Source: Solirubrobacterales bacterium (GTDB taxonomy: Bacteria; Actinomycetota; Thermoleophilia; Solirubrobacterales; 70-9). Taken from it: a stretch of 53,404 nt of DNA. This document shows, piece by piece, positions 23,841 to 52,421 of this stretch. The stretch covers positions 1 to 53,404 of the forward strand of contig WHSW01000003.1 of the NCBI GenBank assembly GCA_009379895.1. Reading direction: 5' to 3'. The first letter of the stretch is position 1; each line of letters starts with the position of its first letter. A program made the translations under genes and the position numbers. A model generated the notes under the pieces. It was not told the DNA's origin, searched no databases, and saw nothing but the letters and a program-made list of their open reading frames with translations.

Positions 23841-24622
23841 TCAGAGCCCGAGCCGCTTGCCGAGGATCTCCTTCATGATCTCGTCGGTGCCGCCGCCGAT
23901 CGGCCCGAGGCGCAGGTCGCGCAGGGCGCGCTCGATCCCGTACTCGGTCATGTAGCCGTAGCCGCCGTGGATCTGCAGGCACTCGTCCGCGACCTCGACC
24001 GCGGCGCGCTGCGTGTGCAGCTTGGCCATCGTCACCTCGCGCAGGCCGGCCGCGATCGCGGGGTGGCCCCAGTCGCCGCGGGCGATCGCCTCGCGGCGCT
24101 CGCGCTCCGGGCGCACGAACTCGCGCAGCGCGTGGTAGGTCAGCGCCCGCGAGGTCTCGAGCTTGACCCCGACCTCGGCGAGCTTGTGGCGGATCGCCCC
24201 GAAGCGGCCGATCGGGCGTCCGAAGGCCTCGCGCCCGCGGGCGTAGTCGATCGTCACCGAGAGCAGCCTCCGCATCGCCCCCACCGCGCCGAGCGCCATC
24301 AGCAGCCGCTCCCACTGGAAGTTGGCCATGATCAGATAGAAGCCGCCGTGCTCAGGGCCGAGCAGGTTCTCGTCGGGAACCTCGACCTCGGTGAAGGAGA
24401 GCTCCGCCGTGTCGGAGGAGTGCCAGCCCAGCTTCTCGAGGCTGCGGGCCACCTCGTAGCCGGGCATCTCGCGCTCCAGGATCAGGAACGAGATCCCGTG
24501 GTGGCCGCCGTCGGGCGCCGTCTTCACCGCGCAGACCAGGAAGTCGGCGCGGGCGCCGTTGGTGATGAAGGTCTTCGCCCCGTCGACCACGTAGCCGCGC
24601 GCGACCTTGCGGGCGCGGTACG
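23841..24622 (-). pseudogene. Acyl-CoA dehydrogenase, 3' part only
   Basis: Only the middle and C-terminal parts of an acyl-CoA dehydrogenase are present: YVVDGAKTFITNGARADFLV, FTEVEVPDENLLG, GREAFGRPIGRFGAIRHKLAEV, CLQIHGGYGYMTEYGIER and GPIGGGTDEIMKEILG. The N-terminal 120 or so residues are missing. Reading upstream, the frame is RARKVARGYVVDG, and just before it the DNA changes frame and continues as the start of an ABC binding protein. A stand-alone start at GTG 24590 would give a protein of 249 residues without the N-terminal domain, unlikely to be active. It is either a deletion product or an assembly join. Confidence 0.8.
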
Positions 24623-25126
24623 CAGCGCGGCGACGTCGGAGCCCCCGCCGGGCTCGGTGATCCCGATCGTCCTGCCGGCCAGATCCGAGATCTCTTGGAT
24701 GTCGCTGTCCGCGGGCACCACGATGCTGAAGATGTTCTTCTCGTGGTTGCAGGCGAGCGCCCGCAGGCCGGGGTCGGTCTTGAAGGCGATCACGTCGCTG
24801 GGCGCCCCGGCCCAGCCGAAGTCGGCGTTCCCGGCGATGATCTGCTGGGTGACGAATCCCGAGCCGTCGGTCTCCTGGATGTTGAGCTTCAGGCCCTCAT
24901 CCTCGAAATAGCCCTGGTCCTCGGCGACGAGCAACGGCAGCCAGGCGTTGCCCCGTGGGAACGAGAGCAGCACATCGACCTCCTGCGTCTCCCCGGAGGC
25001 GGAGGTGGAGGCGGAGGCGGAGGCGTCCTCATCGTCGTCCCCGCCGCAAGCGGCCACGATCGACGACAGTGCGGCCACCGCGAGCACCGCCACCAAGAGC
25101 CTGAGCGCCCTCGCTTGCGACTTCAT
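24623..25126 (-). pseudogene. ABC transporter substrate-binding lipoprotein, 5' part only
   Basis: The first 168 or so residues of an NMT1/THI5-like binding protein are present. The signal peptide ends SSIVAACGG with the lipid cysteine C27; then come an acidic/Ser linker, DVLLSFPRGNAWLPLLVAE, EGLKLNIQETDGSG, AGNADFGWAGAPSDVI and DLAGRTIGITEPGGGSD. The normal protein would be about 330 residues. After GGGSDVAALR the frame no longer encodes a binding protein, and the DNA continues as an acyl-CoA dehydrogenase. GGAAGGGA lies upstream of the ATG at 25126. It is the last gene of a minus-strand unit with an MFS transporter and amidohydrolase, 122 bp after the former. Confidence 0.8.
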
Positions 25127-27912: not shown

Positions 27913-30018
27913 GTGCGTCGACTCAAGGTCGCGGTAGACATCGGGGGAACCTTCACGGACCTCGTCGCACACGACGCGCAGAGCGGCGAGCTGCTGACGG
28001 TGAAGACGCCATCGACGCCGCCCTCGTTCATCGACGGCGTGATCAACGCGTTGGAGAAGGCCGGGATCACGCCCGACGAGGTGGCGATCTTCAAGCACGG
28101 GTCGACGATCGCCACCAACGCGATCATCGAGCGACGGGGCGCCAAGACCGGCCTGGTGACGACCAAGGGCTTTCGCGACGTGCTCGGCGCCGGGCGCGCC
28201 AACCGGCCCGACCTCTTCAACTCCAACTGGGATCCCTCCCCCCCGCTCGTCCCGCGCCGCCACGTTCTCGAGGTGCGCGAGCGGGTCGACTACGAGGGCA
28301 ACGTGATCGAGGAGCTCGACGAGGACGACGTGCGAGCCGCCGCTCGCAAGTTCAAGCGGCGCGAGATCGAGTCGGTCGCGGTCGCCTACATCAACTCGTT
28401 CATGCGCCCCGAGCACGAGCGGCGGACGAAGGAGATCCTGCTCGAGGAGCTCGGCGACGGCGCCTTCGTCTGCACCTCGTCCGACATCCTCCCTGAGATC
28501 CGCGAGTTCGAACGCACCTCGACGGTGGCCGCCAACGCGTACCTGATGCCGGTGATCGACAGCTACATCGACAAGCTCGGGGCGGCCTTGCGCGAGTGGG
28601 GCTACGAGGGCGAGCTCTACGTCACCCACTCGGGCGGCGGGGTGGTCACCGCGCGCGCCGCCCGCGGCGTACCGGCGCGTATCTGCCACTCGGGCCCGGC
28701 CGGTGGGGTGATCGGTGGCCTGCTGGTCGGCGGGCTGTCGGGGTTCGACAACGTGATCACCTTCGACATGGGAGGCACCAGCGCCGACCTGGCGCTCGTC
28801 CACGATCGCGAGCCGACCCTGTCTCCGGAGTGGCGGGTCGACTGGAACATCCCGATCCTGTTCCCGGCCATCGACCTGGTCGCGATCGGCGCCGGCGGCG
28901 GAACCATCGCCTGGGTCGACGCCGGCGGCTCGCTGCGCGCCGGGCCGCAGAGCGCCGGCGCGGACCCCGGGCCGGCGTGCTTCGACAAGGGCAACCTGGA
29001 CCCGACGATCACCGATGCCCACCTCTACCTCGGCCGGCTCAACCCGGAGAGCTACCTCGGCGGCGACCTCGAGATCCGACCGGAGCTCGCCGAGGCGGCG
29101 ATCGCGCGGCTGGCCGAGAAGCTCGACCTGTCGGTCGCCAAGACGGCGAGCGGGGTGCTGCGGATCGCGAACGCCAACATGACCAGCGCCACGCACTTGA
29201 TCTCGGTCGAGCGGGGCCACGACCCACGCGACTTCGCGCTCGTCGCCGGCGGCGGCGCCGGGCCCCTGCACGCGGTGGAGATCGCCCGCGAGCTGCGGAT
29301 CCCGCAGGTCGTGGTCCCGCCGACGCCCGGGGTGACCTCGGCGCTGGGGATCCTGCACGTCGACCTCCGGCACGATCTCCTCGCCCCGGTCCTGCAGCAG
29401 ATCAAGCACCTCGACATCGAGGCTCTGCGGCGCACCTTCGACCGGTTGACGGCCGAGGCAACCGGGATCCTCGCCGCGGAGTCGATCCCCGACGAGCGCC
29501 GCTCGATCGAGCTCTCTGTCGATGCCCGCTATTACGGTCAGACCCCGTACATGAACCTGCGTCTCGATCGGGTCCCAACCAACGCCGCCGAGGTCGATTC
29601 CCTGGTCGCCGACTACCGCAGCCGCTACGAGAACGAGTTCGGCTACCAGCTGCCCGAGGACGTGGCGACGGTCGAGATCGTCAACGCGCGGGTGGCGGCG
29701 ATCGGGGTCACCGACGACGTCGAGCTGCCGACCTCCGAGCGCTCGGGCGACACCGAGGCGGCTCGCAAGGGCGCAAGGGCGGTGTACTTCGACGAGACCG
29801 CCGAGTTCACCGACACGCCGATCTACGATCGATCGCGGCTCGCGGCCGGGGCGCGGATCGACGGCCCGGCGGTGATCGAGCAGACGGACACGACGGTCCT
29901 CGTGCCACCCGGCGCTCGGGCGAGCGTCGATCGCTACCTCAACGTCGTCATCGAAGTGAGCGCCGGAGGGGATCCGGCGCCGGCCGGGGTCGCCGTCGGC
30001 GCCGCGAAGGGAGAATGA
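27913..30018 (+). CDS. hyuA: Hydantoinase/oxoprolinase subunit A (HyuA)
   Basis: HyuA is the ATPase-fold subunit of ATP-dependent N-methylhydantoinase, 5-oxoprolinase and acetone carboxylase relatives. The 701-residue protein starts with VAVDIGGTFTDLV (phosphate 1 motif), then KHGSTIATNAIIERRGAKTG, LVTTKGFRD and LGAGRANRPDLFN. The middle has THSGGGV, CHSGPAGGVIGG and ITFDMGGTSADLALV (second nucleotide motif). IGAGGGTIAWVDAGGSLRAG is typical of the hydantoinase A domain. GTG at 27913 has GGAGG 6 nt upstream. hyuB follows 2 nt after the stop. As a pair they would open a cyclic amide or ureide ring with ATP; acetone carboxylase is less likely because no gamma subunit is seen. Confidence 0.92.
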   Translation: MRRLKVAVDIGGTFTDLVAHDAQSGELLTVKTPSTPPSFIDGVINALEKAGITPDEVAIFKHGSTIATNAIIERRGAKTGLVTTKGFRDVLGAGRANRPDLFNSNWDPSPPLVPRRHVLEVRERVDYEGNVIEELDEDDVRAAARKFKRREIESVAVAYINSFMRPEHERRTKEILLEELGDGAFVCTSSDILPEIREFERTSTVAANAYLMPVIDSYIDKLGAALREWGYEGELYVTHSGGGVVTARAARGVPARICHSGPAGGVIGGLLVGGLSGFDNVITFDMGGTSADLALVHDREPTLSPEWRVDWNIPILFPAIDLVAIGAGGGTIAWVDAGGSLRAGPQSAGADPGPACFDKGNLDPTITDAHLYLGRLNPESYLGGDLEIRPELAEAAIARLAEKLDLSVAKTASGVLRIANANMTSATHLISVERGHDPRDFALVAGGGAGPLHAVEIARELRIPQVVVPPTPGVTSALGILHVDLRHDLLAPVLQQIKHLDIEALRRTFDRLTAEATGILAAESIPDERRSIELSVDARYYGQTPYMNLRLDRVPTNAAEVDSLVADYRSRYENEFGYQLPEDVATVEIVNARVAAIGVTDDVELPTSERSGDTEAARKGARAVYFDETAEFTDTPIYDRSRLAAGARIDGPAVIEQTDTTVLVPPGARASVDRYLNVVIEVSAGGDPAPAGVAVGAAKGE

Positions 30019-30020
30019 GA

Positions 30021-31955
30021 ATGCAAGGCGCAACCGCCACGGCCTCGTCGGCCACCTCGGGCGCGGGAGCCCTGCGCAACGACCCGATCACCTTCGAGGT
30101 GCTGCGCAACGCCTTCAAGTCGATCTGCAACGAGGCGAGCGCCCTGATCGAGCGCGTCTCCTATGCCCCGACGATCACCGAGGGCCACGACTACTCGGTC
30201 TCGATCCTGACCCCCGACGGGCGCCTGGTCTCCCACGGCCAGCGCGACCAGGCCCCGCACATGGGGACCTTCGAGTCGTCGGTGCAGAACCTGGTCCGCG
30301 AGGTAGAGGAGTTCGCGCCGAACGAGGCCTACATCTACAACGATCCCTACACGGGGGGCACGCACCAGAACGACGTCAAGATCATCCGGCCGATCTTCTG
30401 GGAGGGCGAGCTGGTCGCCTTCGCGATCGCCCTCTGCCACTGGCCCGACGTCGGCGGGCCGATGTACGGGACGTTCAACCCGCGGGCGACCGAGTGCTAT
30501 GCGGAGGGGCTGCGCATGCCGCCGCTGAAGCTCTATGAGGACGACAGGCCGGTGAAGCCGATCTGGGACCTGATCGCGATGAACATCCGGGTCCCGAAGG
30601 AGCGGGTCGCCGAGATTCACGCGCAGCACCGCGCCGGCGTGCTCGTCGAGGAGCGCCTGCTCGGCTACGTCGAGAAGTTCGGGCTCGAGATGGTCAAGGA
30701 CGGCTTCGAGGACACCATGGACCATTCCGAGCGTCGCTTCCGCGAGTGGGTCGGCCGGCTTCCCGACGGGACCTACGAGTTCGAGGACTGGGGCGACCGC
30801 GACCTGGGCAAGGAGGACGAGCCACCGATTCGCGTGCACTGCACGATGACGATCGACGGCGACCAGGTGACGATGGACTGGACGGGCTGCGACCCGGCGC
30901 CAATCGCGTCCTGGGGCTTCGCCCGTCCAGCCCTCCAGTCCGCGAGCTACGACGGGACCATGCATTGCTTCCCTGAGCTCGCGCCGCTCAACCATGGCGT
31001 CGTCCGCGCGATCGAGATCATCTCCACCAAGGGCACCTGCGTCGACGTGGTCGAGCCGACGCCCGTGACGGGCTACTGCTCGGGCGCCTACGAGAAGGTC
31101 GACGCGGTGACGATGGCGTGCTGGGGCCAGGCCTTGCAACGGGTCGATCCGCATCGCGTGCACGCCGCGACCGTCAACCTGCAGAATTTCTGCACCGGCG
31201 GCACGCACCCGAAGACCGGCGCGAAGTTCGTCTCCTACATGTGGCTCGAGGGCGGTCAGGGGGCCCGCGCCTACGCGGACGGCAACTCGTTCTACATGAT
31301 GATCTTCATCGGCGGCGCCTCCAACCAGCCCAACGAGACGCTCGAGCGCTGGTACCCGATGGTCTACACCAGCACCGAGGCAGTGGTCGACTCGTGCGGC
31401 GACGGTGAGTACCGAGGCGGCTTCGGAATCTGGCGGAGCTTTCGGGCTACCGGCGACACCGAGCTCGTCGTGCTCGGCGATCGCGAGCGCGTCGGGCCGT
31501 TCGGGCTCGCCGGCGGCAGCAACGGGGGGCCGAACATGGTCGTGCTCAACCCGGGCACCGACGCCGAGGAGAACCTCGGGATGTTCACCACCAAGGCGAG
31601 GCTGAGGTCCGGCGACCAGCTCGAGTTCGGCTCGAACGGCGGCGGCGGCTACGGCCGGCCGTGGGAGCGAAGGGTCGAGTCGGTCCTCGAGGACGTCATC
31701 GACGGTCTGCTCTCCCTCGAGAAGGCTCGCGGCACCTACGGCGTCGCGATCGACGAGGTCGACGCCGACGCCCTCGTCTACGAGGTCGACGAGAACGACA
31801 CCCGGTCGCTGCGGGAGGCGCTGGCCAAGGACGACCGCCCCCGCGGCACCGCGCCCTTCGAGGTCCATCCGCTCGGCGAGCAACTGTTCTCCCGGCCGGA
31901 CGGGCTCGGAACGCGCGCGGGCCAGGCGACCGCCTCCGGGAACGGACGGGGCTGA
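30021..31955 (+). CDS. hyuB: Hydantoinase/oxoprolinase subunit B (HyuB)
   Basis: HyuB partners HyuA. The 644-residue protein opens with NDPITFEVLRNAFKSICNEA, the usual start of the family, then SYAPTITEGHDYSVSIL, HGQRDQAPHMGTFESSVQ, IYNDPYTGGTHQNDV and HWPDVGGPMYGTF. Near the middle GDQVTMDWTG and the C-terminal LAGGSNGGPN and QLEFGSNGGGGYGRP are conserved glycine-rich loops. ATG at 30021 has AAGGGAG 7 nt upstream; an ATG at 30015 overlapping the HyuA stop (ATGA) is an alternative. A RidA-like gene starts 1 nt after its stop. Substrate range cannot be read; hydantoins, N-methylhydantoin and oxoproline are known for the family. Confidence 0.92.
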   Translation: MQGATATASSATSGAGALRNDPITFEVLRNAFKSICNEASALIERVSYAPTITEGHDYSVSILTPDGRLVSHGQRDQAPHMGTFESSVQNLVREVEEFAPNEAYIYNDPYTGGTHQNDVKIIRPIFWEGELVAFAIALCHWPDVGGPMYGTFNPRATECYAEGLRMPPLKLYEDDRPVKPIWDLIAMNIRVPKERVAEIHAQHRAGVLVEERLLGYVEKFGLEMVKDGFEDTMDHSERRFREWVGRLPDGTYEFEDWGDRDLGKEDEPPIRVHCTMTIDGDQVTMDWTGCDPAPIASWGFARPALQSASYDGTMHCFPELAPLNHGVVRAIEIISTKGTCVDVVEPTPVTGYCSGAYEKVDAVTMACWGQALQRVDPHRVHAATVNLQNFCTGGTHPKTGAKFVSYMWLEGGQGARAYADGNSFYMMIFIGGASNQPNETLERWYPMVYTSTEAVVDSCGDGEYRGGFGIWRSFRATGDTELVVLGDRERVGPFGLAGGSNGGPNMVVLNPGTDAEENLGMFTTKARLRSGDQLEFGSNGGGGYGRPWERRVESVLEDVIDGLLSLEKARGTYGVAIDEVDADALVYEVDENDTRSLREALAKDDRPRGTAPFEVHPLGEQLFSRPDGLGTRAGQATASGNGRG

Positions 31956-31956
31956 G

Positions 31957-32358
31957 ATGGCCAAGCGGGCGATCAACCCGGCCGGGCTGCCGACTCCGGT
32001 CGGGCCCTATTCGAACGTCGTCTCAGCCGACGCCGGCAGAGTCGTCTTCTGCGCCGGCCAGGTCGCCCTCGACGCCGGCGGCTCGATCGTCGGCGAGGGT
32101 GACATCGTCGCCCAGACGCGGCAGGTGATGGAGAACCTCAAGCTGGCGCTCGAGGCCGCCGGGGCGAGCTTCGCCGACGTGGTCAAGGTCACCAACTACA
32201 TCACCGACGTCGCTCAGTTCTCGAAGATGGCCGCGGTCCGTCAGGAGTACCTGCGCGAGCCGTACCCGGCGAGCACCCTGATCGAGGTCCAGGCGCTCAT
32301 GTTTCCGGAGCTGCTGATCGAGATCGAGGCGGTCGCGGTCGTCACGGCCGGCCGCTGA
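31957..32358 (+). CDS. RidA/YjgF-family protein without the usual Arg
   Basis: This 133-residue protein has the RidA trimer fold: INPAGLPTPVGPYSNVV, VVFCAGQVALDAGG, QTRQVMENLKLALEAAGASF, VVKVTNYITDVAQF and LLIEIEAVAVV. Typical RidA enzymes have PAR(S/T) where an arginine binds the imine/enamine carboxylate. Here the motif reads YPASTLIEV, with serine at that place, so classic 2-aminoacrylate deaminase activity is doubtful. RidA relatives in catabolic operons often deal with enamine or aminoacrylate intermediates, as RutC does in pyrimidine breakdown. It lies 1 nt after hyuB and 21 bp before the BKACE gene. A second RidA-like gene is in unit C. Confidence 0.88.
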   Translation: MAKRAINPAGLPTPVGPYSNVVSADAGRVVFCAGQVALDAGGSIVGEGDIVAQTRQVMENLKLALEAAGASFADVVKVTNYITDVAQFSKMAAVRQEYLREPYPASTLIEVQALMFPELLIEIEAVAVVTAGR

Positions 32359-32379
32359 GGGGGCCGGGCGGCGGCCAGC

Positions 32380-33204
32380 GTGACCGACCGGGTGATCATC
32401 ACCGTCGCGCCCACCGGGCCGCTGACGACGCGCGACGATCACCCCGGGGTCCCCCTGTCGCCGGCCGAGATCGGAGCGGCCGTCGCCGAGGCCGCCGAGG
32501 CCGGGGCCGCCGTGGCCCACGTCCACGCGCGCGACGCGGACGGGCGACCGACGGCCGATCCAGAGGTCTACGCCGCGATCGTGGGCGAGATTCGCGAACG
32601 CTGCGACATCGTCATCCAGGCATCGACCGGGGTCGGGCTCACGGTCCCGTGGGAGGAGCGGCTGCGGATCGTCGAGTCGGACGCCGTGGACGTGACGATG
32701 GCAACGCTCAACCCGGCATCGATGACCTTCGCCGGGGGAACCTTCAGCAACCCCCCGGAGTTCGTCGAGCGCCTGGCGCGGGCGATGCACGAGCGCGAGG
32801 TGCACCCCGAGCTCGAGGTCTACGACCTCGGTCACGTGTCGCTGTGCCTCGAGTTGGTCGCCGACGGCCTGATCCCCGAGCCGCTTCAGTTCAGCTTCGT
32901 GATGGGGGTTCGCGGGGGGATGCCGGGCGACCCGGGGTTGCTGCCGATGCTGCGCTCGATGCTGCCCGAGGGCGCGATCTGGCAGGCGATCGGGATCGGA
33001 AGAGCCCAGCTGCCGCTCTCGTTCGCGGCCCTGGCGCTCGGCGGCAACATCCGGGTCGGGTTCGAGGACAACGTCTACTTCGCGCGCGGCCGCCTGGCGG
33101 ATTCCAACGCTCAGTTCGTTCGCCGCGCGGTCCAGCTCGTGCAGGCCGCCGGTCGCGAGGTCGCGGGGCCCGAGGACGTGCGCACCCGCCTCGACCTCCG
33201 ATGA
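32380..33204 (+). CDS. BKACE / beta-keto acid cleavage enzyme (DUF849)
   Basis: BKACE enzymes condense a beta-keto acid with acetyl-CoA and split it into acetoacetate and a new acyl-CoA, as in Kce of lysine fermentation. The 274-residue protein carries VAHVHARD with zinc ligands H47 and H49, and NIRVGFEDNVY with R225, E229 and D230, which align with the catalytic Arg, metal Glu and Asp of Kce. ITVAPTGPLTT at the N-terminus and YDLGHVSL are also typical. GTG at 32380 starts the family sequence. Its stop overlaps the carbamate kinase start by 4 nt (ATGA). It implies that the pathway passes through a beta-keto acid, but which one is unknown. Confidence 0.9.
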   Translation: MTDRVIITVAPTGPLTTRDDHPGVPLSPAEIGAAVAEAAEAGAAVAHVHARDADGRPTADPEVYAAIVGEIRERCDIVIQASTGVGLTVPWEERLRIVESDAVDVTMATLNPASMTFAGGTFSNPPEFVERLARAMHEREVHPELEVYDLGHVSLCLELVADGLIPEPLQFSFVMGVRGGMPGDPGLLPMLRSMLPEGAIWQAIGIGRAQLPLSFAALALGGNIRVGFEDNVYFARGRLADSNAQFVRRAVQLVQAAGREVAGPEDVRTRLDLR

Positions 33205-34106
33205 CGGCGCCGAGCTCCGCGCCGTCGAACGCCGGAATCAGACGCCTCGTGATCGCCCTCGGCGGAAACGCGTTGGCAACGGCCCAGGACGCCGGCCCGC
33301 GCGCGCAGCAGGCCGCCGTCGAGGTCGCGATGGAGCAGGTCGCAGAGCTCGTCGCGAGCGGCTACGAGATCGCGATCACGCATGGAAACGGGCCCCAGGT
33401 CGGCAACCTGATGCTCAAGAACGAGCTCGCGCGCGATGTCGTCCCGGCGGTGCCGCTGGACTGGTGCGTGGCTCAGACGCAGGCGACGATCGGGTATCTG
33501 ATCGCGACCGCGCTCGAGCGTTCGCTCGCGCGCCGCGGGATCGAGCGGGCGATCGCGGTGCTCGTCACCAGGGTGCTCGTCGACGCCCGCGATCCAGCGT
33601 TCTCGAACCCGAGCAAGCCGATCGGCAACGATCGGCGGCTGGTCGCCTCGCCCGAGCCGCAGCGAGTGCTCGACGAGGCCTCGATCGTCCGCCTGCTCGA
33701 CGACGGAGGGGTCGTGGTCGGCGCCGGCGGGGGCGGCGTGCCGATGGTGCTCGAGCAGGGAGCGCTTCGAGGCGTCGAGGCGGTGATCGACAAGGACCTG
33801 TGCGCCGCCCTGCTGGCGGACCACCTGGCCGCCGACGCGTTGGTGATCGCGACCGACGTCCCCGGGGTCGCGCTGGAGCTCGACTCCGACCGTCCGCGAT
33901 GGCTGGGCCGGATCTCCGCCGACCGGCTCGGCGAGCTACATCGCGCCGGCACCTTCCCGGCGGGCAGCATGGGCCCCAAGGTCGAGGCATGCCTGCGCTT
34001 CGTCCGTGCCGGTGTGGGCCGACGGGCGTCGATCGCCGCCCTGCAGGACCTCGGTGGGGCGGTCGCGGGCGAGCGCGGGACGATCGTCGTCGGTGGCTCG
34101 GGATGA
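33201..34106 (+). CDS. arcC: Carbamate kinase
   Basis: Carbamate kinase transfers phosphate from carbamoyl phosphate to ADP, releasing carbamate. The 301-residue protein has the family length and motifs: VIALGGNAL (G21-A24), THGNGPQVGNLML (residues 60 on), AQTQATIGYL, a KPIGNDRRLV stretch, VVGAGGGGVPMV, VIDKDLCAALLA and GSMGPKVEACLRF. It is closer in context to catabolic kinases of allantoin-type operons than to the arginine deiminase pathway, since no arcA or arcB is near. ATG at 33201 overlaps the upstream stop, and its own stop overlaps fdrA (ATGA). It would make ATP from carbamoyl phosphate produced by the next three gene products. Confidence 0.94.
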   Translation: MTAPSSAPSNAGIRRLVIALGGNALATAQDAGPRAQQAAVEVAMEQVAELVASGYEIAITHGNGPQVGNLMLKNELARDVVPAVPLDWCVAQTQATIGYLIATALERSLARRGIERAIAVLVTRVLVDARDPAFSNPSKPIGNDRRLVASPEPQRVLDEASIVRLLDDGGVVVGAGGGGVPMVLEQGALRGVEAVIDKDLCAALLADHLAADALVIATDVPGVALELDSDRPRWLGRISADRLGELHRAGTFPAGSMGPKVEACLRFVRAGVGRRASIAALQDLGGAVAGERGTIVVGGSG

Positions 34107-35614
34107 TCGAGCGACTCACGGTCCGCAGCGGTGCCTACCGAGACTCCGTCACCCTGATGCTGGCCTCCCAGGACGCCGGCGCGATCGCGGGCGTCGTCCA
34201 CGCCTCCGCGGTGAGCGCGACGCCGCTCAACCTCGAGCTCCTCGAGCTGGCGGGCTTCGGGCCCGGCGAGCTCGAAGCGCTCGAGCCGACCGACCTGGTG
34301 GTAGCGGTGCGGGCCGAGGACGAGTCGGCGGCCGCGGCCGCCCTGGAGGCGATCGAGGTCCGATTCGCGGCCCACGAGACGACCGAGCCCGCGGGACTCC
34401 CGCCGCCGCGCTCGCTGACCGCCGCGGTCCGCCGGCGCCCCGACGCGAGCCTGGCGGTGATCTCGGTGCCCGGCGAGGACGCGGCCCACGAATGCTCGGT
34501 GGCGATCGAGGCCGGGCTGCACGCATTCTGCTTCTCGAGTGGCTTCGACGTCTCGGTGGAGGCGGCGCTAAAGCGGCGCGCGGTCGAGCGCGGGCTGCTG
34601 CTCATGGGTCCGGACTGCGGCACGGCGATCCTCGACGGGATCGGGATCGGCTTCGCCAACGAGGTCCGCCCGGGCCCCGTGGGGATCGTCGGGGCGTCGG
34701 GCACGGGAATCCAGGAGGTCGCGTGCCTGCTCGACATCGCCGGGGTTGGGATCTCGCAGGCGATCGGCGTCGGCGGGCGCGATCTCGGAGCCGAGGTGGG
34801 AGCGACCATGTCCCTGCGGGCGATCGAGCTGCTCGCGGGCGACGGCGCGACCGAGGTGATCGTGGTGATCGCCAAGTCGCCCGAGCCGGGCGCGGCGGGC
34901 TCGGTCGCCGCCGCCGCGGCGGCGACCGGCAAGCCGGCGATCCTCTGCTTTCCGGGGCTGGGCGACCTCGTGCCCGGCGAGGATGTCGAGGTGGTCGCAA
35001 CGCTCGAGGAGGCGGCGCGCCGCGCGGCGATTCGAAGCGGCGCCTCCCTCCACCCGCCGCTCGTCAACGCGCCGGCGACCCGCCCCGGGCTGATCCGGGG
35101 CCTGTTCTCGGGCGGGACCCTGCGCGATGAGGCGTTCGCGCTGCTGGCGTCGGCGCTCGCCGAGGCCGGCGAGGCGCCGCCGCTGGCGCTCGGTCGCGAG
35201 CCGCGGCCCGAGGAGGAGGGGCGCCACCTGCTGATCGACTACGGGTCCGAGGCGCTGACCCGGGGCCGCGCCCACCCGATGATCGATCCGACGCTGCGCG
35301 CCGCGGCGCTCGAGCGTGCCGGCGCGCGAGGCGAGATCTCAGTCTTGATAGTCGACGTCGTGCTCGGACGCGCCGCCCACGACGATCCCGCCGCCGTCCT
35401 GGCGCCGGCGATCTCGCGGATGCTGTCCGCTCGCCCGGGCGAACTGGCGGTCGTGGTCTCGCTGTGCGGCGCCGCGCGCGATCCTCAGGGGCTCGACGAG
35501 CAGGCCGCCCGCCTCGCCGATGCCGGCGCCGTGGTCGTCCGCGGGAACGCCCAAGCGACCCGCCTGGCAATCGCCGCCGCGGCGGGCACCACGGGGGAGC
35601 CGGCTTCGGCGTGA
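34103..35614 (+). CDS. fdrA: FdrA-like protein (oxamate carbamoyltransferase subunit AllF type)
   Basis: FdrA resembles succinyl-CoA synthetase alpha/beta domains. The 503-residue protein has the FdrA hallmark MGPDCGTAILDGIGIGFAN (from residue 168) and VGIVGASGTGIQEVACLLD (from residue 193), plus IGVGGRDLG, VIVVIAKSPEPGAA, LIRGLFSGGTLRDEA and the second CoA-ligase domain around LIVDVVLGRAAHDDPA. In E. coli, FdrA with the DUF1116 and DUF2877 proteins forms the oxamate carbamoyltransferase complex AllFGH. It overlaps the kinase and DUF1116 genes by 4 nt on each side, so subunits should be made in step. The acceptor or donor in this organism need not be oxamate or oxalurate. Confidence 0.93.
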   Translation: MIERLTVRSGAYRDSVTLMLASQDAGAIAGVVHASAVSATPLNLELLELAGFGPGELEALEPTDLVVAVRAEDESAAAAALEAIEVRFAAHETTEPAGLPPPRSLTAAVRRRPDASLAVISVPGEDAAHECSVAIEAGLHAFCFSSGFDVSVEAALKRRAVERGLLLMGPDCGTAILDGIGIGFANEVRPGPVGIVGASGTGIQEVACLLDIAGVGISQAIGVGGRDLGAEVGATMSLRAIELLAGDGATEVIVVIAKSPEPGAAGSVAAAAAATGKPAILCFPGLGDLVPGEDVEVVATLEEAARRAAIRSGASLHPPLVNAPATRPGLIRGLFSGGTLRDEAFALLASALAEAGEAPPLALGREPRPEEEGRHLLIDYGSEALTRGRAHPMIDPTLRAAALERAGARGEISVLIVDVVLGRAAHDDPAAVLAPAISRMLSARPGELAVVVSLCGAARDPQGLDEQAARLADAGAVVVRGNAQATRLAIAAAAGTTGEPASA

Positions 35615-37038
35615 CCGAGGAGCTCGGGACACCCCTGCTGCGCGCCCCGGCGGTCGCCGTCAGCGGCGGCATCGCCGTCCTCGCCGCCGAGCTCGAGGCC
35701 CAGGGCGTGGGCGTCGAGCGGATCGACTGGCGTCCCCCGGCGGCGGCCGCCGCGGACCTCGAGCGTCTGGCGGCGGCCGGCGGGGAGGTCGCCGCCGCCA
35801 ACCGCGAGGCGCTCTCGCGGATGAGCACGGCACGCCCGGTCGTGCTCGGCATCGCCTCCGCCGCCGACGCGATCGGGCTCGAGCGCGGCTGCTTTCTGCA
35901 CGCCGGCCCACCGGTCGCCTGGGAGGCGATGTGCGGGCCGATGCGGGGCGCGATCGCCGGCGCCGCGGTGCTCGAGGGCATCGCCGACGAGCCCGAGCGC
36001 GCCCTGCGCGACGCTGCGGCCGGCCGTTACGAGCTCGCCCCGTGCCACGAGCACCTCGCGGTCGGGCCGATGGCCGGCGTGATCAGCCCGTCGATGCCCG
36101 TCTGGATCGTGGAGAGCTCCGAGCACGGCAACCGCGCCCACTGCACGCTCAACGAGGGTCTCGGCAGGGTGCTCCGCTACGGCGCCTACGACGCCGGGGT
36201 GATCGAGCGGCTGCGATGGATCGAGCGCTCGCTGGCACCGATCCTCGCCGAGGCCCTGGCGCGGCTCTCCGAGCCGCTCGACCTGCGCGCGATCGGTGCC
36301 CAGGCCGTGGAGATGGGGGATGAGCTGCACAACCGCAATCGCGCCGGGACCTCGTTGCTGCTGCGCGCCCTCGCTCCGGCGCTCGTCGCCAGCGAGCGCC
36401 CCTCCGGCGATCTCTCCGCGGCGGTCCGCTTCATCGCCTCCAACGACCACTTCTTCCTCAACCTCTCGATGGCGATGGCGAAGGCGACCGCCGACGCGGC
36501 GGCCGGGATCGAGGGCTCGAGCGTGGTCACCGCGATGGCGCGCAACGGGACCGACTTCGGGATCCGCCTGAGCGGAACGGGCGAGACATGGTTCACGGGC
36601 CCCGCCGGCCGAGTCGAGGGGCTCTACTTCCCGGGCTACGGCGACGCGGACGCCAATCCCGACCTCGGCGACAGTGCGATCACCGAGACGGTGGGCCTCG
36701 GCGGCTTCGCGATGGGCGCCGCGCCGGCGATCGTCCGCTTCGTCGGCGGAGACAGCGAGCTCGCGCTGGCCACCACCCGATCGATGTACGACATCGCCTG
36801 CGGCGAGAGCGAGGCCTTTCGCGTGCCGGCGCTCGGCTTTCGCGGGACCCCGCTCGGAATCGACGCCCGCGAGGTCGTCCATACCGGCCTGCTGCCGCAG
36901 ATCAACACCGGCATCGCCCATCGCGAGCCCGGCGTCGGGCAGATCGGCGCCGGGCTCGTGACCCCCCCGATGGAGGCGTTCGCGGCGGCGGTCGGCGCCC
37001 TCGCGGGGCGCGGGCCGGCTCGTGGGGAGGCCGCGTGA
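35611..37038 (+). CDS. DUF1116 protein (AllG/YlbE-like carbamoyltransferase subunit)
   Basis: This 475-residue protein matches the DUF1116 family, the AllG subunit of the oxamate carbamoyltransferase complex in E. coli. Recognisable parts are PVAWEAMCGPMRGAIAGA, HEHLAVGPMAGVISPSMPV, NEGLGRVLRYGAY, MGDELHNRNRAGTSLLLR, FIASNDHFFLNLSMAMAKA and VVTAMARNGTDFGIRLSG. The C-terminus has FRGTPLGIDAREVVHTGLLP and QINTGIAHREPGVGQIGAG. No signal peptide or membrane helix is present. It starts at GTG 35611 inside the fdrA stop and ends overlapping the DUF2877 start; both overlaps are GTGA. The function is inferred from this three-gene set beside carbamate kinase. Confidence 0.93.
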   Translation: MTEELGTPLLRAPAVAVSGGIAVLAAELEAQGVGVERIDWRPPAAAAADLERLAAAGGEVAAANREALSRMSTARPVVLGIASAADAIGLERGCFLHAGPPVAWEAMCGPMRGAIAGAAVLEGIADEPERALRDAAAGRYELAPCHEHLAVGPMAGVISPSMPVWIVESSEHGNRAHCTLNEGLGRVLRYGAYDAGVIERLRWIERSLAPILAEALARLSEPLDLRAIGAQAVEMGDELHNRNRAGTSLLLRALAPALVASERPSGDLSAAVRFIASNDHFFLNLSMAMAKATADAAAGIEGSSVVTAMARNGTDFGIRLSGTGETWFTGPAGRVEGLYFPGYGDADANPDLGDSAITETVGLGGFAMGAAPAIVRFVGGDSELALATTRSMYDIACGESEAFRVPALGFRGTPLGIDAREVVHTGLLPQINTGIAHREPGVGQIGAGLVTPPMEAFAAAVGALAGRGPARGEAA

Positions 37039-37667
37039 CCGGGCTCGTGCCGCGGCGCGCGATCGGCGAACCGCCGGCCGCGGCGGTCGCCAGCCACGGC
37101 GAGGCGATCCTGACCCGGGTCGGGGTCGAGCCATCGGTCGACGCCGAGGCCCTTGCTATCGGGATCCTCGCCGACGTCGACGGTCCCTTTCACGATCGGC
37201 TGCGGGCCGGGCTTGGGATGCTGCTCCGCGCCGTGGCCGAGCGCCGCGCGCAGCTCGGCACCGCCGCGGCCTGTCGCCTGATCGGCCTCGGCCCCGGAGC
37301 GACCCCACTCGGCGACGACTACCTCGCCGCCTGCGCCCTGGCCGTCGCCCGGCTGGGCGGCGCAGCGGGATTCGCGCGCCCCGAGCGCGACGCCTGGCTG
37401 CGGTCGCTGCTCCCGCAACGCCTCGGCAAGGCGACCACGCCCGTCTCGGCTCATCTGATCGCGGACGCCGTCCGCGGCTTCGCGCCGCCGCCGGCGCACG
37501 CGCTATTCGAGCTGGATGCCAACGAGATCAGGCTGGAGACCGCGATCGAACGGCTGGCGGGCATCGGAGCCACCAGCGGCCACGGGTGGGCTGCCGCGAT
37601 CGGCGCGACGGCGCTTCTGCTCGCGGTTGACCATGACAAACGAGCGAGAGGAGAAGCACTCAGATGA
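37035..37667 (+). CDS. DUF2877 protein (AllH/YlbF-like carbamoyltransferase subunit)
   Basis: The 210-residue protein has the DUF2877 signature RLIGLGPGATPLGDDYLAACA in its middle. KATTPVSAHLIADAVRGFAPPP and the C-terminal ATSGHGWAAAIGATALL are also typical. It is somewhat shorter than E. coli YlbF/AllH; the N-terminal domain is reduced. GTG at 37035 overlaps the DUF1116 stop and has GGGGAGG 4 nt upstream; the ATGA at its end overlaps the cyclase start. It would be the third subunit of the proposed carbamoyltransferase. How the subunits share catalysis is not known well enough to assign residues here. Confidence 0.9.
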   Translation: MTGLVPRRAIGEPPAAAVASHGEAILTRVGVEPSVDAEALAIGILADVDGPFHDRLRAGLGMLLRAVAERRAQLGTAAACRLIGLGPGATPLGDDYLAACALAVARLGGAAGFARPERDAWLRSLLPQRLGKATTPVSAHLIADAVRGFAPPPAHALFELDANEIRLETAIERLAGIGATSGHGWAAAIGATALLLAVDHDKRARGEALR

Positions 37668-38452
37668 GAGTCATCGACCTGTCCCAGGACTTCTCGGTCC
37701 ACACCCCGGCGTTCGCCGGCTACGACGGCCCGGACATCAAGTGGATCAAGCGCCTGGCCTTCGACAAGGCCGGCGGCCAGGAGATCACCAGCACCCTGCA
37801 CGTCGGGACCCATCTCGATGCGCCCGCCCACTTCCTCTCGGGCGGCAAGTTCATCGGCGACCTGCCGCTCGACCATCTCGTCGGCCCGGCCTGCGTCGTC
37901 GACCTCGAGCGGATGGGCATCGGCGACTACGGGATCTACGGCCCCGAGCAGTTCGAGACCTGGGAGCGCGAGACCGGGATCCGGATCGAGCGCGGCGACA
38001 TCCTCATCGTCCACACCGGCTATCACCGACACTACCCCGAGAACTGGGCGGATCTCGACGCCGTCGACGAGACCCGTTACTTCATCCGCCATCCCGGGCC
38101 GACGCGCGAGTTCGCCGAGTGGGTCCTCGACCGGGGCGTGCGCTGGCTGGCAGTCGACGTGGGCACCGCCGACCACCCGATGAACACGGTGATCAGGCGC
38201 ATGCGCGCCGACGAGGCCGAGCTCGCCGAGCAGGCGCTCGGCCGCTCGCTGGACGACGTCTTCCCGCGTCCCGACTACCAGATCATGCACACGCTGTTGT
38301 TCCCGCATGACGTGGTCCACATCGAGAACCTGGGCGGGGCGATCGACGAGGTACTCGACCGGAGGATCTCATTCGGGTGCTTTCCGTGGCGCTTTCAGGG
38401 CGGGGAGGCCGCCTTCTGCCGGGCGGTCGCGTTCCCGGACCTGGATCCGTGA
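37664..38452 (+). CDS. Cyclase-family metal hydrolase (KynB/isatin hydrolase-like)
   Basis: The 262-residue protein belongs to the 'cyclase' family of Zn/Mn hydrolases that includes kynurenine formamidase and isatin hydrolase. The signature HVGTHLDAPAHF supplies H46, H50, D52 and H56. ILIVHTGYHRHYPENW, WLAVDVGTADHP and HDVVHIENLGGAID are further family parts. These enzymes hydrolyse N-formyl groups or open cyclic amides without ATP. Translation is coupled to DUF2877 by an ATGA overlap, so it belongs to the carbamoyltransferase set. It may open a lactam or imide intermediate; the natural substrate is not readable. Confidence 0.92.
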   Translation: MRVIDLSQDFSVHTPAFAGYDGPDIKWIKRLAFDKAGGQEITSTLHVGTHLDAPAHFLSGGKFIGDLPLDHLVGPACVVDLERMGIGDYGIYGPEQFETWERETGIRIERGDILIVHTGYHRHYPENWADLDAVDETRYFIRHPGPTREFAEWVLDRGVRWLAVDVGTADHPMNTVIRRMRADEAELAEQALGRSLDDVFPRPDYQIMHTLLFPHDVVHIENLGGAIDEVLDRRISFGCFPWRFQGGEAAFCRAVAFPDLDP

Positions 38453-38504
38453 GCCGGGTGAGCGAAGTCGTTCGCATACGTCAGTCGACGAGAACGGAGA
38501 ACCG

Positions 38505-39998
38505 ATGAGCGCAGCACCGCAAGCCGACGCAGGCATCCTCGTGCGCGGCGGTCAGATACTCGAGGCGGGCGGCTCGAGCCGCCGAGCCGACGTCCTGGTC
38601 CGCGACGGGGTGATCGCCGAGGTCGGCGATCTCGAGCGGGACGGAACGCCCGAGATCGACGCCGGCGGCGACTACGTCGTACCCGGGCTGATCAACTCGC
38701 ACTATCACTCGGCCGAGAACTTCAACCCCGGCCTGTACGAGAACCTGCCGCTCGACCTGTGGTTCCTGCACTCCCACCAGGTCACCCGCGCCGAGCCGCC
38801 GAGCGCCGAGACGATCTACGCCCGGACCATGCTCGGCGCGATGCAGATGCTGCGCACCGGCACGACCAGCGTCGTCGACTTCGTCTTCGAGGCGCCCGAG
38901 ATCACGGTCGAGACGCTGGAGCCGATCGTGCGCGCGTACCGCGACGCCGGGCTGCGGGCGACGATCCTGCTCGGCGTCGCCGACAAGCCGTTCGCCGACT
39001 CGCTGCCTCTCGAGCCCGGCGAGCGGGCCGCCTGGACGGATGAGGCCGAGGCGCCGTCGCTGGAGCGGATCATGGACACCGGTCGCGCCGCGATCGAGCG
39101 CTGGCACGATCCCGACGGCCTGATCGCGATCGGCTTCGGGCCATCCGCGCCCCAGCGCTGCACCGAGGCGCTCTTCGAGCGGACGCTCGAGCTCTCGCGT
39201 GCGCGCGGGCTGGCCTGGCAGACGCACGTGCTCGAGACCAGGACGCAGGCGCTGACCGCGCGCAAGTGGCACCGCGGAAGCTCGTTCGTGGAGGTGCTCG
39301 ATGAGCGAGGCATGCTCGGCGACCACGCGTCCCTGGTGCACATGGTGTGGCTCAGCGACGCCGACATAGAGACCATGGCGCGCACCCGGACCACCGCGGT
39401 GCATTGCCCGTTCAGCAACATGCGCCTGGGCGACGGGATCGCGCGCCTGCCCGCGCTGCGGCGGGCAGGCGTGCGAGTCGGGCTCGGCACCGACGGGCGT
39501 GGCTGCGACGAGACCCTGGACATGCTCGAGCTCGCCCGGGTGACGACGCTACTGCACAAGGTCCGGGGCGAGCACCACGCCCTCTGGCCGACCGCCGACG
39601 ACGCGCTCTCGATGCTGACCGGGGAGGCGAGCATCTGCACCGGGCGGGGGGAGCGCCTCGGGCGCATCGAGCCGGGCGCCCACGGCGATCTGCTCGTCGT
39701 CCGCGGCGACGGCATCACCTTCACGCCCGTCCACGACCCGGTGCGCCAGCTGCTCTACGGAGGCTCGGCCGCCGACCTGCGCCACGTCATCGTCGGGGGC
39801 CAGGTCACCGTCGCCGACGGGCGCCTGAGGACCGTCGACGAGCGGGAGATGCTCGCCCTCGCCCGCGAGCGGGCCGCCGCCGAGATGCCCCACCTGCGCG
39901 GCCGCGACGGGGCCCCGGAGCTCGAGCGGGTGGTCGAGGACGTCTACCAGCGCGCCGAGGCCGCACCGCTCGAGGTGAACGCGTACATACCGGGGTAG
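38505..39998 (+). CDS. Amidohydrolase, TRZ/ATZ-like (SsnA/deaminase group)
   Basis: This 497-residue protein has the mononuclear metal centre of deaminases and chlorohydrolases in the amidohydrolase superfamily: GLINSHYHSAENF (H66, H68), WQTHVLETRTQ (H241, E244), ASLVHMVWLS (H279) and GLGTDGRGCDETLDML (D330). The set H, H, H, E, H, D is complete, so it should be active. AVHCPFSNMRLGDGIARL lies between. Relatives remove amino, chloro or alkylamino groups from purines, triazines and similar rings. ATG at 38505 has GGAG 5 nt upstream. A truncated MFS gene begins at its TAG. In this cluster it may deaminate the imported heterocycle. Confidence 0.92.
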   Translation: MSAAPQADAGILVRGGQILEAGGSSRRADVLVRDGVIAEVGDLERDGTPEIDAGGDYVVPGLINSHYHSAENFNPGLYENLPLDLWFLHSHQVTRAEPPSAETIYARTMLGAMQMLRTGTTSVVDFVFEAPEITVETLEPIVRAYRDAGLRATILLGVADKPFADSLPLEPGERAAWTDEAEAPSLERIMDTGRAAIERWHDPDGLIAIGFGPSAPQRCTEALFERTLELSRARGLAWQTHVLETRTQALTARKWHRGSSFVEVLDERGMLGDHASLVHMVWLSDADIETMARTRTTAVHCPFSNMRLGDGIARLPALRRAGVRVGLGTDGRGCDETLDMLELARVTTLLHKVRGEHHALWPTADDALSMLTGEASICTGRGERLGRIEPGAHGDLLVVRGDGITFTPVHDPVRQLLYGGSAADLRHVIVGGQVTVADGRLRTVDEREMLALARERAAAEMPHLRGRDGAPELERVVEDVYQRAEAAPLEVNAYIPG

Positions 39999-40390
39999 TG
40001 CGCCGCCTCGGCAGCCCCGCGGGCAGCGCCCGGATCCTGATCGCGATCCTCGCCGCCGCCTTCAACCTACGGATCGGGATCGTCGCGATCGGGCCGGTGA
40101 TCGACGAGGTGCGCGCCGACACGTCGATGTCGAGCGGCGTGGCCGGCGTGCTGACCACGATCCCGTTCCTGTGCATGGGCACCTTCGCGTTCCTGGGCCC
40201 GCCCCTGGCGCAGCGGGTGGGCGCGGCGCGCGTCGTGATCGGCGCCCTGGCGCTGATCGCCGTCGGGTCGGCCGCCCGCTCGGCGGTCGCCGAGGCATGG
40301 GCGGTGCTCGCGGCCACGCTTCCGATCGGGCTCGGGATCGCCCTGATCGGGGGTCACCCTGCCGGGGGTGGTCAAGGAGCGATGCGCTGG
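39998..40390 (+). pseudogene. MFS transporter remnant (CynX/NimT-like), truncated
   Basis: The first 130 or so residues of an MFS transporter are present: AAFNLRIGIVAIGPVIDEVR, GVAGVLTTIPFLCMGTFAFL and LPIGLGIALIG. At 40351-40355 (ATCGGGGGTC) one extra G shifts the frame; without it the sequence goes on as VTLPGVVKER, the normal family continuation. Even in that frame the likeness stops at about 40388, and a stop follows shortly. The uncorrected frame ends at 40458. The remaining two thirds of the transporter are absent, so this is a remnant. GTG at 39998 overlaps the amidohydrolase stop by one base (TAGTG). Confidence 0.8.
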
Positions 40391-40615
40391 TGCAATCTGA
40401 ACCTCAACCGGGTCCGCCGCCCGCTGATCGGGTTCGACGCGGCGGCGCCGGACTGACTGACGACCATTCGCCCCTGCTGGGCGCCGACCCCGGCTCAGCG
40501 GGCTCGCTCAGTCGTGGCCCTCGCTGGCCCCGGGAGGTGCGTCTTGGCCTCCGAATGCGCCGGGGATGCCGAGCCGCCCGCCGCGATACCGCACTTCGCC
40601 TCGGCGTGATCCGCC
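40391..40615. other. Junction between the MFS remnant and GntR gene
   Basis: This 225-bp stretch follows the broken MFS gene and precedes the 3' end of the GntR gene. No domain or inverted repeat of note could be recognised on either strand, and no insertion-sequence ends are visible. It marks where the transporter sequence has been lost. Confidence 0.45.
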
Positions 40616-41326
40616 TCATCCCCGCGAGGCATCCCCCCCGGGAGGGGTGATTGTGCTGCCCTCGGCGGTGTTCGAGAGCAGGGTCTCGGTCCGGCGCAGG
40701 TGCTCCGCGAGAAGCGAGACCGCCACCGTCGGGTCTCCCTCCCTGACGGCCGCCAGGATCGCGGCGTGCTCGGCCGCGAACGCCTCCGGGGTGCTGCGCA
40801 TCTCGGGCGAGAGGCGCAGGTAGCGCTCGGCGCCGGTCCAGAGCTGCCTGATTACGTGCATTGTCCACGCCGAGTGCGCGGGCTCGTAGAGGATGAAGTG
40901 GAACCTCCGGTGCTGTTCGTGCGCCTGGCGATCGCGGGCGTCGGCCAGGAGGCGGGTCATCCCGTACAGGATCCGCTCTGCTTCGTCGAGCAGGGTCACT
41001 GTGAAGTAGGGGAACGCCCGCCGCAGGGCGTACGTCTCGATCACGAGCCTCGTTTCGTAGATGTCGCGCATGTCGTTGACGCTGATCGGCGTGACCGTCG
41101 CGCCCCGGTTCACCGCGATCTCCACGAGGCGCTCCGACTCGAGGCGGCGAAGCGCCTCTCGGACCGGGATCGGGCTGACGCCGTTCTCCTGCGCCAACCT
41201 GGAAACGAGCAGGCGCGAGCCCGCCTCGTATTCGCCGGAGAGGATCGCCTCGCGGACCGCGCGCTGAACGCGGTCGACGAGGCTCAGCTCCGTCCCGGGT
41301 GAGTTGTTGCCTTGTCGATTCGCCAT
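40616..41326 (-). CDS. GntR-family regulator, FadR/FCD subgroup
   Basis: The 236-residue protein has an N-terminal winged helix (VDRVQRAVREAILSGEYEAG, RLAQENGVSPIPVREALRRL, LVEIAVNRGATVTPIS) and a C-terminal FCD ligand domain with DMRDIYETRLVIETYALRRA, HEQHRRFHFILYEPA and EHAAILAAVREGD, whose His and Asp residues usually bind a metal and a carboxylate ligand. ATG at 41326 is preferred to one 9 codons upstream because GGGAGG lies 10 nt before it. The gene is divergent from the TSUP pair and ABC operon and is the only regulator in the island. It likely represses these genes until a pathway acid is present. Confidence 0.92.
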   Translation of the reverse strand: MANRQGNNSPGTELSLVDRVQRAVREAILSGEYEAGSRLLVSRLAQENGVSPIPVREALRRLESERLVEIAVNRGATVTPISVNDMRDIYETRLVIETYALRRAFPYFTVTLLDEAERILYGMTRLLADARDRQAHEQHRRFHFILYEPAHSAWTMHVIRQLWTGAERYLRLSPEMRSTPEAFAAEHAAILAAVREGDPTVAVSLLAEHLRRTETLLSNTAEGSTITPPGGDASRG

Positions 41327-41457: not shown

Positions 41458-41814
41458 ATGAGCAGCGCGCGAGGCGCGGTCATCGGTCTCACCGGGGGCT
41501 TGTTCTCGGGGCTGCTGGGCATCGGTGGTGGCACCGTGATGGTGCCGCTGCTCGTGCTGTGGGCGGGGTGCGAGCAGCGCGTCGCGCATGCGATGAGCCT
41601 GGTCGCGATCATTCCGATCAGCGCCGCGGCCGTGCTCGTCTACGGCGGCGCGGGGGAGGTCGATCCGGCCGCCGCGGTCGCGCTCAGCCTCGGCGCGGTC
41701 TTTGGGGCGCGACTCGGCGCCAGCCTGCTGACCCGCGCTCCGGAGCGTGTGCTGAAGGCCGCGTTCGGCGTCTTCATGCTGGTCGCCGCAGCGCTGATCG
41801 CGGTGGACGCTTAG
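41458..41814 (+). CDS. Half-size TSUP (TauE/SafE) permease, subunit 1
   Basis: The protein is 118 residues, about half the usual TSUP length of roughly 250. It holds one copy of the family repeat: GLTGGLFSGLLGIGGGTVMV followed by PLLVLW, AHAMSLVAIIPISAAAVLVY and GAVFGARLGASLL, with about four membrane segments. A second half-size TSUP gene starts 4 bp downstream, and no single base change would fuse them simply, because the first ends cleanly at a hydrophobic C-terminus. The two should assemble as a heterodimer. TSUP carriers move sulfite, sulfonates or organic acids; the cargo here is unknown. Confidence 0.85.
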   Translation: MSSARGAVIGLTGGLFSGLLGIGGGTVMVPLLVLWAGCEQRVAHAMSLVAIIPISAAAVLVYGGAGEVDPAAAVALSLGAVFGARLGASLLTRAPERVLKAAFGVFMLVAAALIAVDA

Positions 41815-41818
41815 CGCG

Positions 41819-42268
41819 ATGGATCTCTTCACCTTCCCTCTCATGCTCGCCGCCTTCGGTGTGCTCGTCGGGGTCGCGTCGGGCCTGATCGGGGTTGGTG
41901 GCGGCATCTTCCTGGTCCCCTACTTGGTAGTCCTTGCCGGCCTCTCGCAGCACAGCGCCCAGGCAACATCGCTGCTCGTCGTCCTGCCAACCGCCGCGGT
42001 GGCCTCCTGGTCCCTCGTCCGCCGCGGGGTCACGGATGTTCGCACGCCGTTACGGATCGGCGCCGTCGGGGTGGCGGGCAGCGTCGTTGGAACCCTGTTG
42101 GCGTTGGTGCTCCCCGGCCAGGCGCTGCGGATCATCTTCGCAGTCCTGATGTGCATCGTCGGGATCCGCCTGCTGCGCGACGCGGTCCGGCGGCGGGCCG
42201 TCGCGGAGCCCGAGCGGGGAGGCGAGCTCGACGAGGCGCCGGCCGTGGCGCCGGGGCCACGGGCGTGA
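41819..42268 (+). CDS. Half-size TSUP (TauE/SafE) permease, subunit 2
   Basis: This 149-residue protein carries the second repeat: VGVASGLIGVGGGIFLVPYL, SAQATSLLVVLPTAAVASW, GAVGVAGSVVGTLLALVL and IIFAVLMCIVGIRLLRDAV, about four membrane segments, followed by a hydrophilic tail of 25 residues. The SGL(L/I)G(I/V)GGG motif is shared with the upstream half, as expected for the two homologous halves of TSUP transporters. ATG at 41819 is 4 bp after the partner's TAG. Together they probably export or import a small organic anion linked to the pathway. Confidence 0.85.
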   Translation: MDLFTFPLMLAAFGVLVGVASGLIGVGGGIFLVPYLVVLAGLSQHSAQATSLLVVLPTAAVASWSLVRRGVTDVRTPLRIGAVGVAGSVVGTLLALVLPGQALRIIFAVLMCIVGIRLLRDAVRRRAVAEPERGGELDEAPAVAPGPRA

Positions 42269-43492: not shown

Positions 43493-43498
43493 GCGCGA

Positions 43499-48252: not shown

Positions 48253-48259
48253 GGCCGCG

Positions 48260-49300: not shown

Positions 49301-49320
49301 GTCAAGACAAGGAGGCAAGG

Positions 49321-52409: not shown

Positions 52410-52421
52410 TCGGAGGGATCG

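Follow-up and report, generated by a model that had tools for sequence, protein, structure and literature searches.

The DNA stretch analysed here (the window) comprises 53,404 nucleotides of contig WHSW01000003.1 from a Solirubrobacterales bacterium (assembly GCA_009379895.1; genome 88% complete) and carries an operon, in which the genes of HyuAB, an ATP-dependent ring-opener, are found together with those of the transcarbamylase AllFGH and a carbamate kinase (CK). The original prediction for this DNA was that HyuAB opens a hydantoin-like ring at the expense of one ATP, whereas FdrA/DUF1116/DUF2877 and CK capture the carbamoyl group and return one ATP. Pfam scans and translations confirmed the plus-strand gene set at positions 27913-39998, from HyuA to a TRZ/ATZ-type amidohydrolase, and Pfam and NCBIfam profiles together with the gene junctions placed HyuAB, FdrA/DUF1116/DUF2877 and CK in one operon, as had been proposed. 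The earlier inventory was correct for the genes that it named, and omitted RidA, the beta-keto acid cleavage enzyme BKACE, a PF04199 cyclase, a deaminase and a further ring-opener candidate at 46828-48252. The junctions from HyuA through the amidohydrolase measure, in order, 2, 1, 21, -4, -4, -4, -4, -4 and 88 bp, with the 4-bp overlaps linking BKACE to CK, CK to AllF, AllF to AllG, AllG to AllH and AllH to the cyclase. Because the short gaps are followed by these overlaps, the genes from HyuA to at least the cyclase are predicted to form a single transcript.

HyuA (27913-30018), the ATP-binding subunit of a clade II member (see below) of the ATP-dependent lactamase/hydantoinase family, matches PF05378, PF01968 and PF19278, all above cut-off, and its ATP motifs DIGGTFTD, DMGGT and GADPGP are intact. 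The metal-site subunit HyuB (30021-31955; PF02538, 446 bits) apparently keeps the Asp-His-Asp-His metal tetrad of CapB (HDYS, THQND, CHWPD; CapB residues taken from PMC8453981). The best solved relatives of HyuA are N-methylhydantoinase 7hk5, a match at the superfamily level only, and caprolactamase CapA 6yra, with CapA also being its top-scoring named family model. These genes are followed by a RidA-family enamine/imine deaminase (31957-32358; PF01042), which scores 102 bits with TIGR00004 (cut-off 106) and 80 bits with RutC (cut-off 169), and by BKACE (32380-33204), which scores 319 bits with PF05853 and 292 bits with Lys_ferment_KCE, below the cut-off of 382.

The carbamoyl-phosphate half begins with an AllK-like CK (33201-34106) adjoining AllF, which scores 295 bits with TIGR00746 (below the equivalog cut-off of 358) and 263 bits with PRK12352 (cut-off 266), and shares 52-64% identity with the AllF-adjacent CKs of two relatives (genomes G421 and G401). 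The three transcarbamylase subunits lie together at 34103-37667: AllF/FdrA (34103-35614) scores 403 bits with PRK06091 (cut-off 433), contains PF00549 and PF02629 and has a solved relative in FdrA 3dmy, while AllG (DUF1116; 35611-37038; PF06545, 316 bits) and AllH (DUF2877; 37035-37667; PF11392, 55 bits), a short form of 210 aa, both score above cut-off. The adjoining cyclase (37664-38452; PF04199, 128 bits), from the isatin hydrolase/kynurenine formamidase superfamily, has an intact HxGTHxDxPxH motif and is a candidate ring-opener. The TRZ/ATZ-type amidohydrolase (38541-39998, start uncertain; PF01979, 161 bits) is likely a heterocycle deaminase, with N-ethylammeline chlorohydrolase, 5'-deoxyadenosine deaminase and 8-oxoguanine deaminase as its nearest models, all below cut-off. 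The operon ends with an MFS transporter truncated to 152 aa (39998-40456; weak partial match to PF07690); full-length MFS genes are present at the corresponding place in two relatives, after the deaminase in G401 and after BKACE in G396. A GntR/FCD protein encoded on the minus strand (40616-41326; PF00392, PF07729) is the probable regulator of the operon.

The oxamic transcarbamylase of E. coli, which converts oxalurate and phosphate to oxamate and carbamoyl phosphate, was proved in 2024 to be AllFGH, and its genes share an operon with carbamate kinase (PMC11326118). The FdrA/DUF1116/DUF2877 proteins of the window belong by sequence to this family, which agrees with their predicted role in carbamoyl capture, and because the activity has been proved in E. 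coli, the carbamoyl-phosphate half of the proposal has a firm family basis. Genome G401, from the same family as the window genome, has its genes in the identical order, and most of the proteins share 56-87% identity, so the window operon is not a product of chance (gene calls in the high-GC loci of G421, G401, G013 and G028 were made with the codon usage of the window). Across the phylum, AllG is present in 49 of 396 genomes. In 14 of 30 AllG genomes, a HyuB gene shares a contig with AllG and lies no more than 15 kb away, against 0.68 expected by random placement, and a count of 14 was never reached in 200,000 simulations; it is a lower bound, since the assemblies are fragmented, and includes one case (G421) in which the HyuB is of a different kind and on the opposite strand. 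HyuAB, AllFGH and CK are a recurrent genomic unit. No HyuAB was found near AllG at 16 loci of named AllG relatives, because even the nearest of these are only 45-55% identical.

The AllFGH-linked HyuAB are of two separate kinds in the HyuB tree, where clade I contains 17 sequences and clade II comprises the window, G401 and G421, with G135:C52 as its sister. Membership of the window HyuAB in clade I was ruled out by this tree. A search of the phylum found clade-I HyuB in 24 of 396 genomes, and AllG in 23 of these 24 (Fisher P = 1.2e-22). At the family level, all three genomes with a window-type AllG are among the 4 of 37 genomes that carry clade-II HyuB (Fisher P = 5e-4; small counts), a pattern of presence and absence that favours a linkage of HyuAB to AllFGH. 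The P values for linkage are indicative, as related genomes are not independent events. The window AllG groups (support 99/100) with those of G401, G421, G032, G157, G135, G013 and G028, and AllFGH in this group stands beside clade-I HyuAB (G032, G157, G135) or beside the same cyclase as in the window (G032, G421, G013, G028). AllFGH of the window is an ortholog of these proteins with the HyuAB partner swapped. If HyuAB and AllFGH of the window act in series, an ATP-dependent ring-opener would have been paired with AllFGH twice, because the window AllG groups with AllG proteins located beside clade-I HyuAB or a cyclase, while the window HyuAB comes from the other subfamily.

The clade-I operon (G308, G024, G086, G009, G226, G118 and others) encodes an NCS2 xanthine/uracil permease, CK, AllH, AllF and AllG, followed by a molybdenum hydroxylase (FAD, 2Fe-2S and Mo subunits), CoxG, an AtzE/GatA-like amidase, HyuA, HyuB and a CaiB-type CoA-transferase. 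Some of these operons include an additional carboxyltransferase or cytosine-deaminase-like gene, and in G032, G157 and G135 the CoA-transferase is replaced by an AMP-forming acyl-CoA ligase. For the permease, the highest score comes from the xanthine permease model. PucR-type regulators accompany several AllFGH clusters (PF07905 in a Kiruna actinobacterial metagenome-assembled genome, and the same gene cluster in G009, G062 and G085). The Mo large subunit (e.g. L076:8525-10966 in G308) reaches 1458 bits, against a cut-off of 950, in the NCBIfam model 'aerobic CO dehydrogenase group 5', and has PYRGAGR in place of the cysteine motif of form-I CO dehydrogenase. With the form-I motif missing, we rejected CO dehydrogenase as the identity of the neighbouring CoxL, and the label is probably wrong for the molybdenum hydroxylase group of these operons. 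Barbiturase, an enzyme that would have pinned down the substrate, was likewise rejected as the ring-opener of freshwater actinobacterial AllFG loci: it was absent among ten scanned proteins, eight of them from these loci, which were scanned in part, and the proteins seen included XdhC, PucR and a nitrilase-family protein.

Ureidomalonate is a one-carbon homologue of oxalurate. In the simplest reading of the clade-I operon, uracil or a like base would be oxidized to barbiturate by the Mo hydroxylase, which HyuAB would open to ureidomalonate with ATP spent. AllFGH would then produce malonamate and carbamoyl phosphate, CK would give the ATP back, and the amidase would release NH3 from malonamate to leave malonate, to be converted to malonyl-CoA. 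Tentatively, an undescribed, near energy-neutral nucleobase pathway of this kind (permease, deaminase, Mo hydroxylase, HyuAB, AllFGH, CK, amidase and CoA-transferase or ligase) may extend through the phylum; the window would then hold a variant in which HyuAB has been exchanged and which includes a cyclase and a RidA/BKACE carbon branch. At G421:C87 (L058/L072), CK-AllFGH-cyclase lies near a CaiB-type CoA-transferase and carboxyltransferase-, amidase-, AMP-ligase-, asparaginase- and cytosine-deaminase-like proteins, all named by sequence resemblance; this locus may represent a cyclase-based version of the clade-I pathway lacking HyuAB.

For the window operon, we propose with a probability of roughly 0.5 that it serves the catabolism of a nucleobase-derived cyclic ureide, with HyuAB and AllFGH acting in series. 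The deaminase would ready the heterocycle, whose ring would be opened by HyuAB (with ATP spent) and/or the PF04199 cyclase. The product would be an N-carbamoyl compound, most likely an acylurea, from which AllFGH would transfer the carbamoyl group to phosphate, and CK would convert carbamoyl phosphate to ATP, CO2 and NH3. RidA and BKACE would handle the leftover carbon skeleton, turning an enamine or imine into a keto acid for subsequent beta-keto acid cleavage. The best-studied member of the HyuAB family converts one ATP to ADP per ring (PMC8453981), and AllFGH with CK would return one ATP; thus, a ring opened by HyuAB would carry about no net ATP cost. The pairing is probably a real and undescribed nitrogen-scavenging pathway.

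The equilibria of carbamoyl transfer strongly favour carbamoylation (PMC4016543), and phosphorolysis would therefore best draw on an acylurea. Oxalurate, the proven AllFGH substrate, is such a compound, which also favours a ring that opens to an acylurea. On chemical grounds, the opening of a simple hydantoin would produce an N-carbamoyl amine, a weaker donor for phosphorolysis, and a barbiturate- or parabanate-type ring fits better, as possibly does uracil, whose product ureidoacrylate RidA could follow.

The series reading gains from the family activity of AllFGH and from the recurrent pairing, and several observations weigh against it. No model reached its equivalog cut-off with the window HyuAB (CapA 541 and CapB 238 bits, cut-offs 1000), so the ring that it opens cannot be named from sequence. 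Its HyuB is only ~28% identical to clade I and separate from it in the HyuB tree, and the regular partners of clade-II HyuAB in the close relatives examined (G401, G396, G421) are RidA and BKACE. In G396, HyuA-HyuB-RidA-BKACE-MFS occurs without CK, AllFGH or cyclase, directly downstream of a molybdenum hydroxylase. G421 has HyuAB-VOC-SDR-aldolase-like-OCD-RidA-BKACE and CK-AllFGH-cyclase-CaiB-carboxyltransferase on different contigs. The HyuAB that adjoins BKACE in G135 is a more distant relative (48/54% identity), and AllFGH of that genome is paired with another HyuAB. AllH of the window, with 210 aa against 289 aa in G421 and 271 aa in E. coli (PMC11326118), is not full-length, its N-terminus being ~60-80 residues shorter; the space left for AllH in G401 (L060) is likewise short, which suggests a lineage-specific truncation. 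The cyclase beside AllH is an alternative ring-opener, which may feed AllFGH alone. Finally, the original prediction took the lack of an N-carbamoyl hydrolase in the window as an argument for the AllFGH route. The lack itself is consistent with our data, as no such hydrolase is present in the operon or in Pfam scans covering the 20-53 kb part of the window, but the argument fails genome-wide: elsewhere the genome encodes an M20 carbamoylase-family protein (C571; TIGR01879 266 bits, cut-off 204), five isochorismatase-family and six nitrilase-family genes.

Since clade-II HyuAB occurs without AllFGH, and AllFGH with the cyclase occurs without clade-II HyuAB (G013, G028), the window looks like a fusion of two modules with the HyuAB partner swapped: in both the window genome and G401, a CK-AllFGH-cyclase-deaminase cassette is placed between BKACE and MFS. 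The two modules may even work independently from one transcript and share no metabolite, HyuAB-RidA-BKACE-MFS acting on a non-ureide lactam and CK-AllFGH-cyclase-deaminase on an oxalurate-like ureide opened by the cyclase. We consider this rather less likely than action in series. Each module is indeed found alone in the relatives just described, and the cyclase is ~80% identical wherever it stands beside AllH (G013, G028, G032, G401, G421). Yet the 4-bp overlap of BKACE and CK couples the modules translationally in both the window genome (G000) and G401, and every genome of the family with a window-type AllG has clade-II HyuAB. In HyuB, RidA and BKACE, the window genome is slightly more distant from G396 and G401 than these two are from one another, which hints that G396 may have lost the cassette. 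Moreover, the AllFGH operon of G032 contains a cyclase as well as clade-I HyuAB, so the cyclase is no simple substitute for HyuAB.

An unlikely explanation is a purine-derived substrate, with AllFGH converting oxalurate to oxamate and carbamoyl phosphate as the E. coli enzyme does (PMC11326118), and with parabanate- or allantoin-like rings as the targets of HyuAB or the cyclase. Hydantoins can be opened by HyuAB family members, and both the PucR-type (purine catabolism) regulators of related clusters and the xanthine-like clade-I permease would suit such a substrate, but the annotated parts revealed no uricase gene and no allantoate or ureidoglycolate genes, RidA and BKACE would have no role in an oxamate branch, and the CoA-transferase and carboxyltransferase at the end of the clade-I operon suit malonate. 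Even less credible is that HyuAB lies here by accident and serves an unrelated housekeeping role, as a 5-oxoprolinase or a generic ATP-dependent lactamase. The HyuAB superfamily is large, the window genome contains four HyuB genes, and the best-scoring named model, CapA, remains below cut-off; however, the operon is kept in G401, RidA and BKACE neighbour clade-II HyuAB in G401, G396 and G421 (BKACE also in G135), and the best solved relative is an N-methylhydantoinase.

A second ureide/nucleobase-like cluster occupies 42482-53402 and includes an NMT1 ABC transporter, a dihydropyrimidinase/allantoinase-like protein (46828-48252), which is the second ring-opener candidate, another RidA, a cytosine-deaminase-like protein (51165-52409) and DUF1989 (52422-53402). 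Just past the window, at 55,993, begins the gene of a xanthine-dehydrogenase-like Mo subunit (contig end 57,843). The TauE/SafE transporter at 41458-42268 appears as two adjacent half-size open reading frames, of which the first corresponds to the C-terminal and the second to the N-terminal half of the profile. At 23841-25126, an acyl-CoA dehydrogenase missing the N-terminal domain overlaps with an NMT1-type binding protein that breaks off in mid-domain; the arrangement resembles a deletion or an assembly junction, located near 24,550.

If the series reading is true, bacteria would have a means of opening stabilised nucleobase rings with ATP and of regaining that ATP from the carbamoyl leaving group. 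It would also add a second role for AllFGH, whose function has been proved only for allantoin breakdown in E. coli, and explain the presence of Mo hydroxylases labelled as aerobic CO dehydrogenase (group 5) inside nucleobase operons. In agreement with the original prediction, no described pathway with the HyuAB and AllFGH pairing was found in the literature searched (mostly without subscription papers), and the window operon appears to be an undescribed variant assembled from known parts. The E. coli AllFGH-AllK system (PMC11326118, PMC9843812) likewise has three transcarbamylase subunits and a carbamate kinase in one operon and makes ATP from carbamoyl phosphate, but it obtains its ureide from allantoin through ATP-independent hydrolases, has no HyuAB, RidA, BKACE or cyclase, and its AllH is longer than that of the window. 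The N-methylhydantoinase/caprolactamase (CapAB) family shares with the window HyuAB the HyuA and HyuB domains, ATP motifs and metal tetrad. However, the window proteins score below its equivalog cut-offs, and the next step in the known N-methylhydantoin routes is N-carbamoylsarcosine amidohydrolase (e.g. PMC4417704) rather than phosphorolysis. Comammox bacteria with allFGHK beside triuret/biuret genes, and ammonia-oxidising archaea with allFGHK (PMC12625717), resemble the window in having these genes in a ureide cluster outside enterobacteria, but no HyuAB was reported there, and the paper nowhere contains the word hydantoin. In Rubrobacter, ring opening is also followed by carbamoyl phosphorolysis (UGTCase) and carbamate kinase, in purine breakdown (Barba 2013, PMC4016543). 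That route uses an ATP-independent allantoinase and an ATCase-like transcarbamylase unrelated to AllFGH, and it gains ATP, whereas the pathway proposed for the window would break even.

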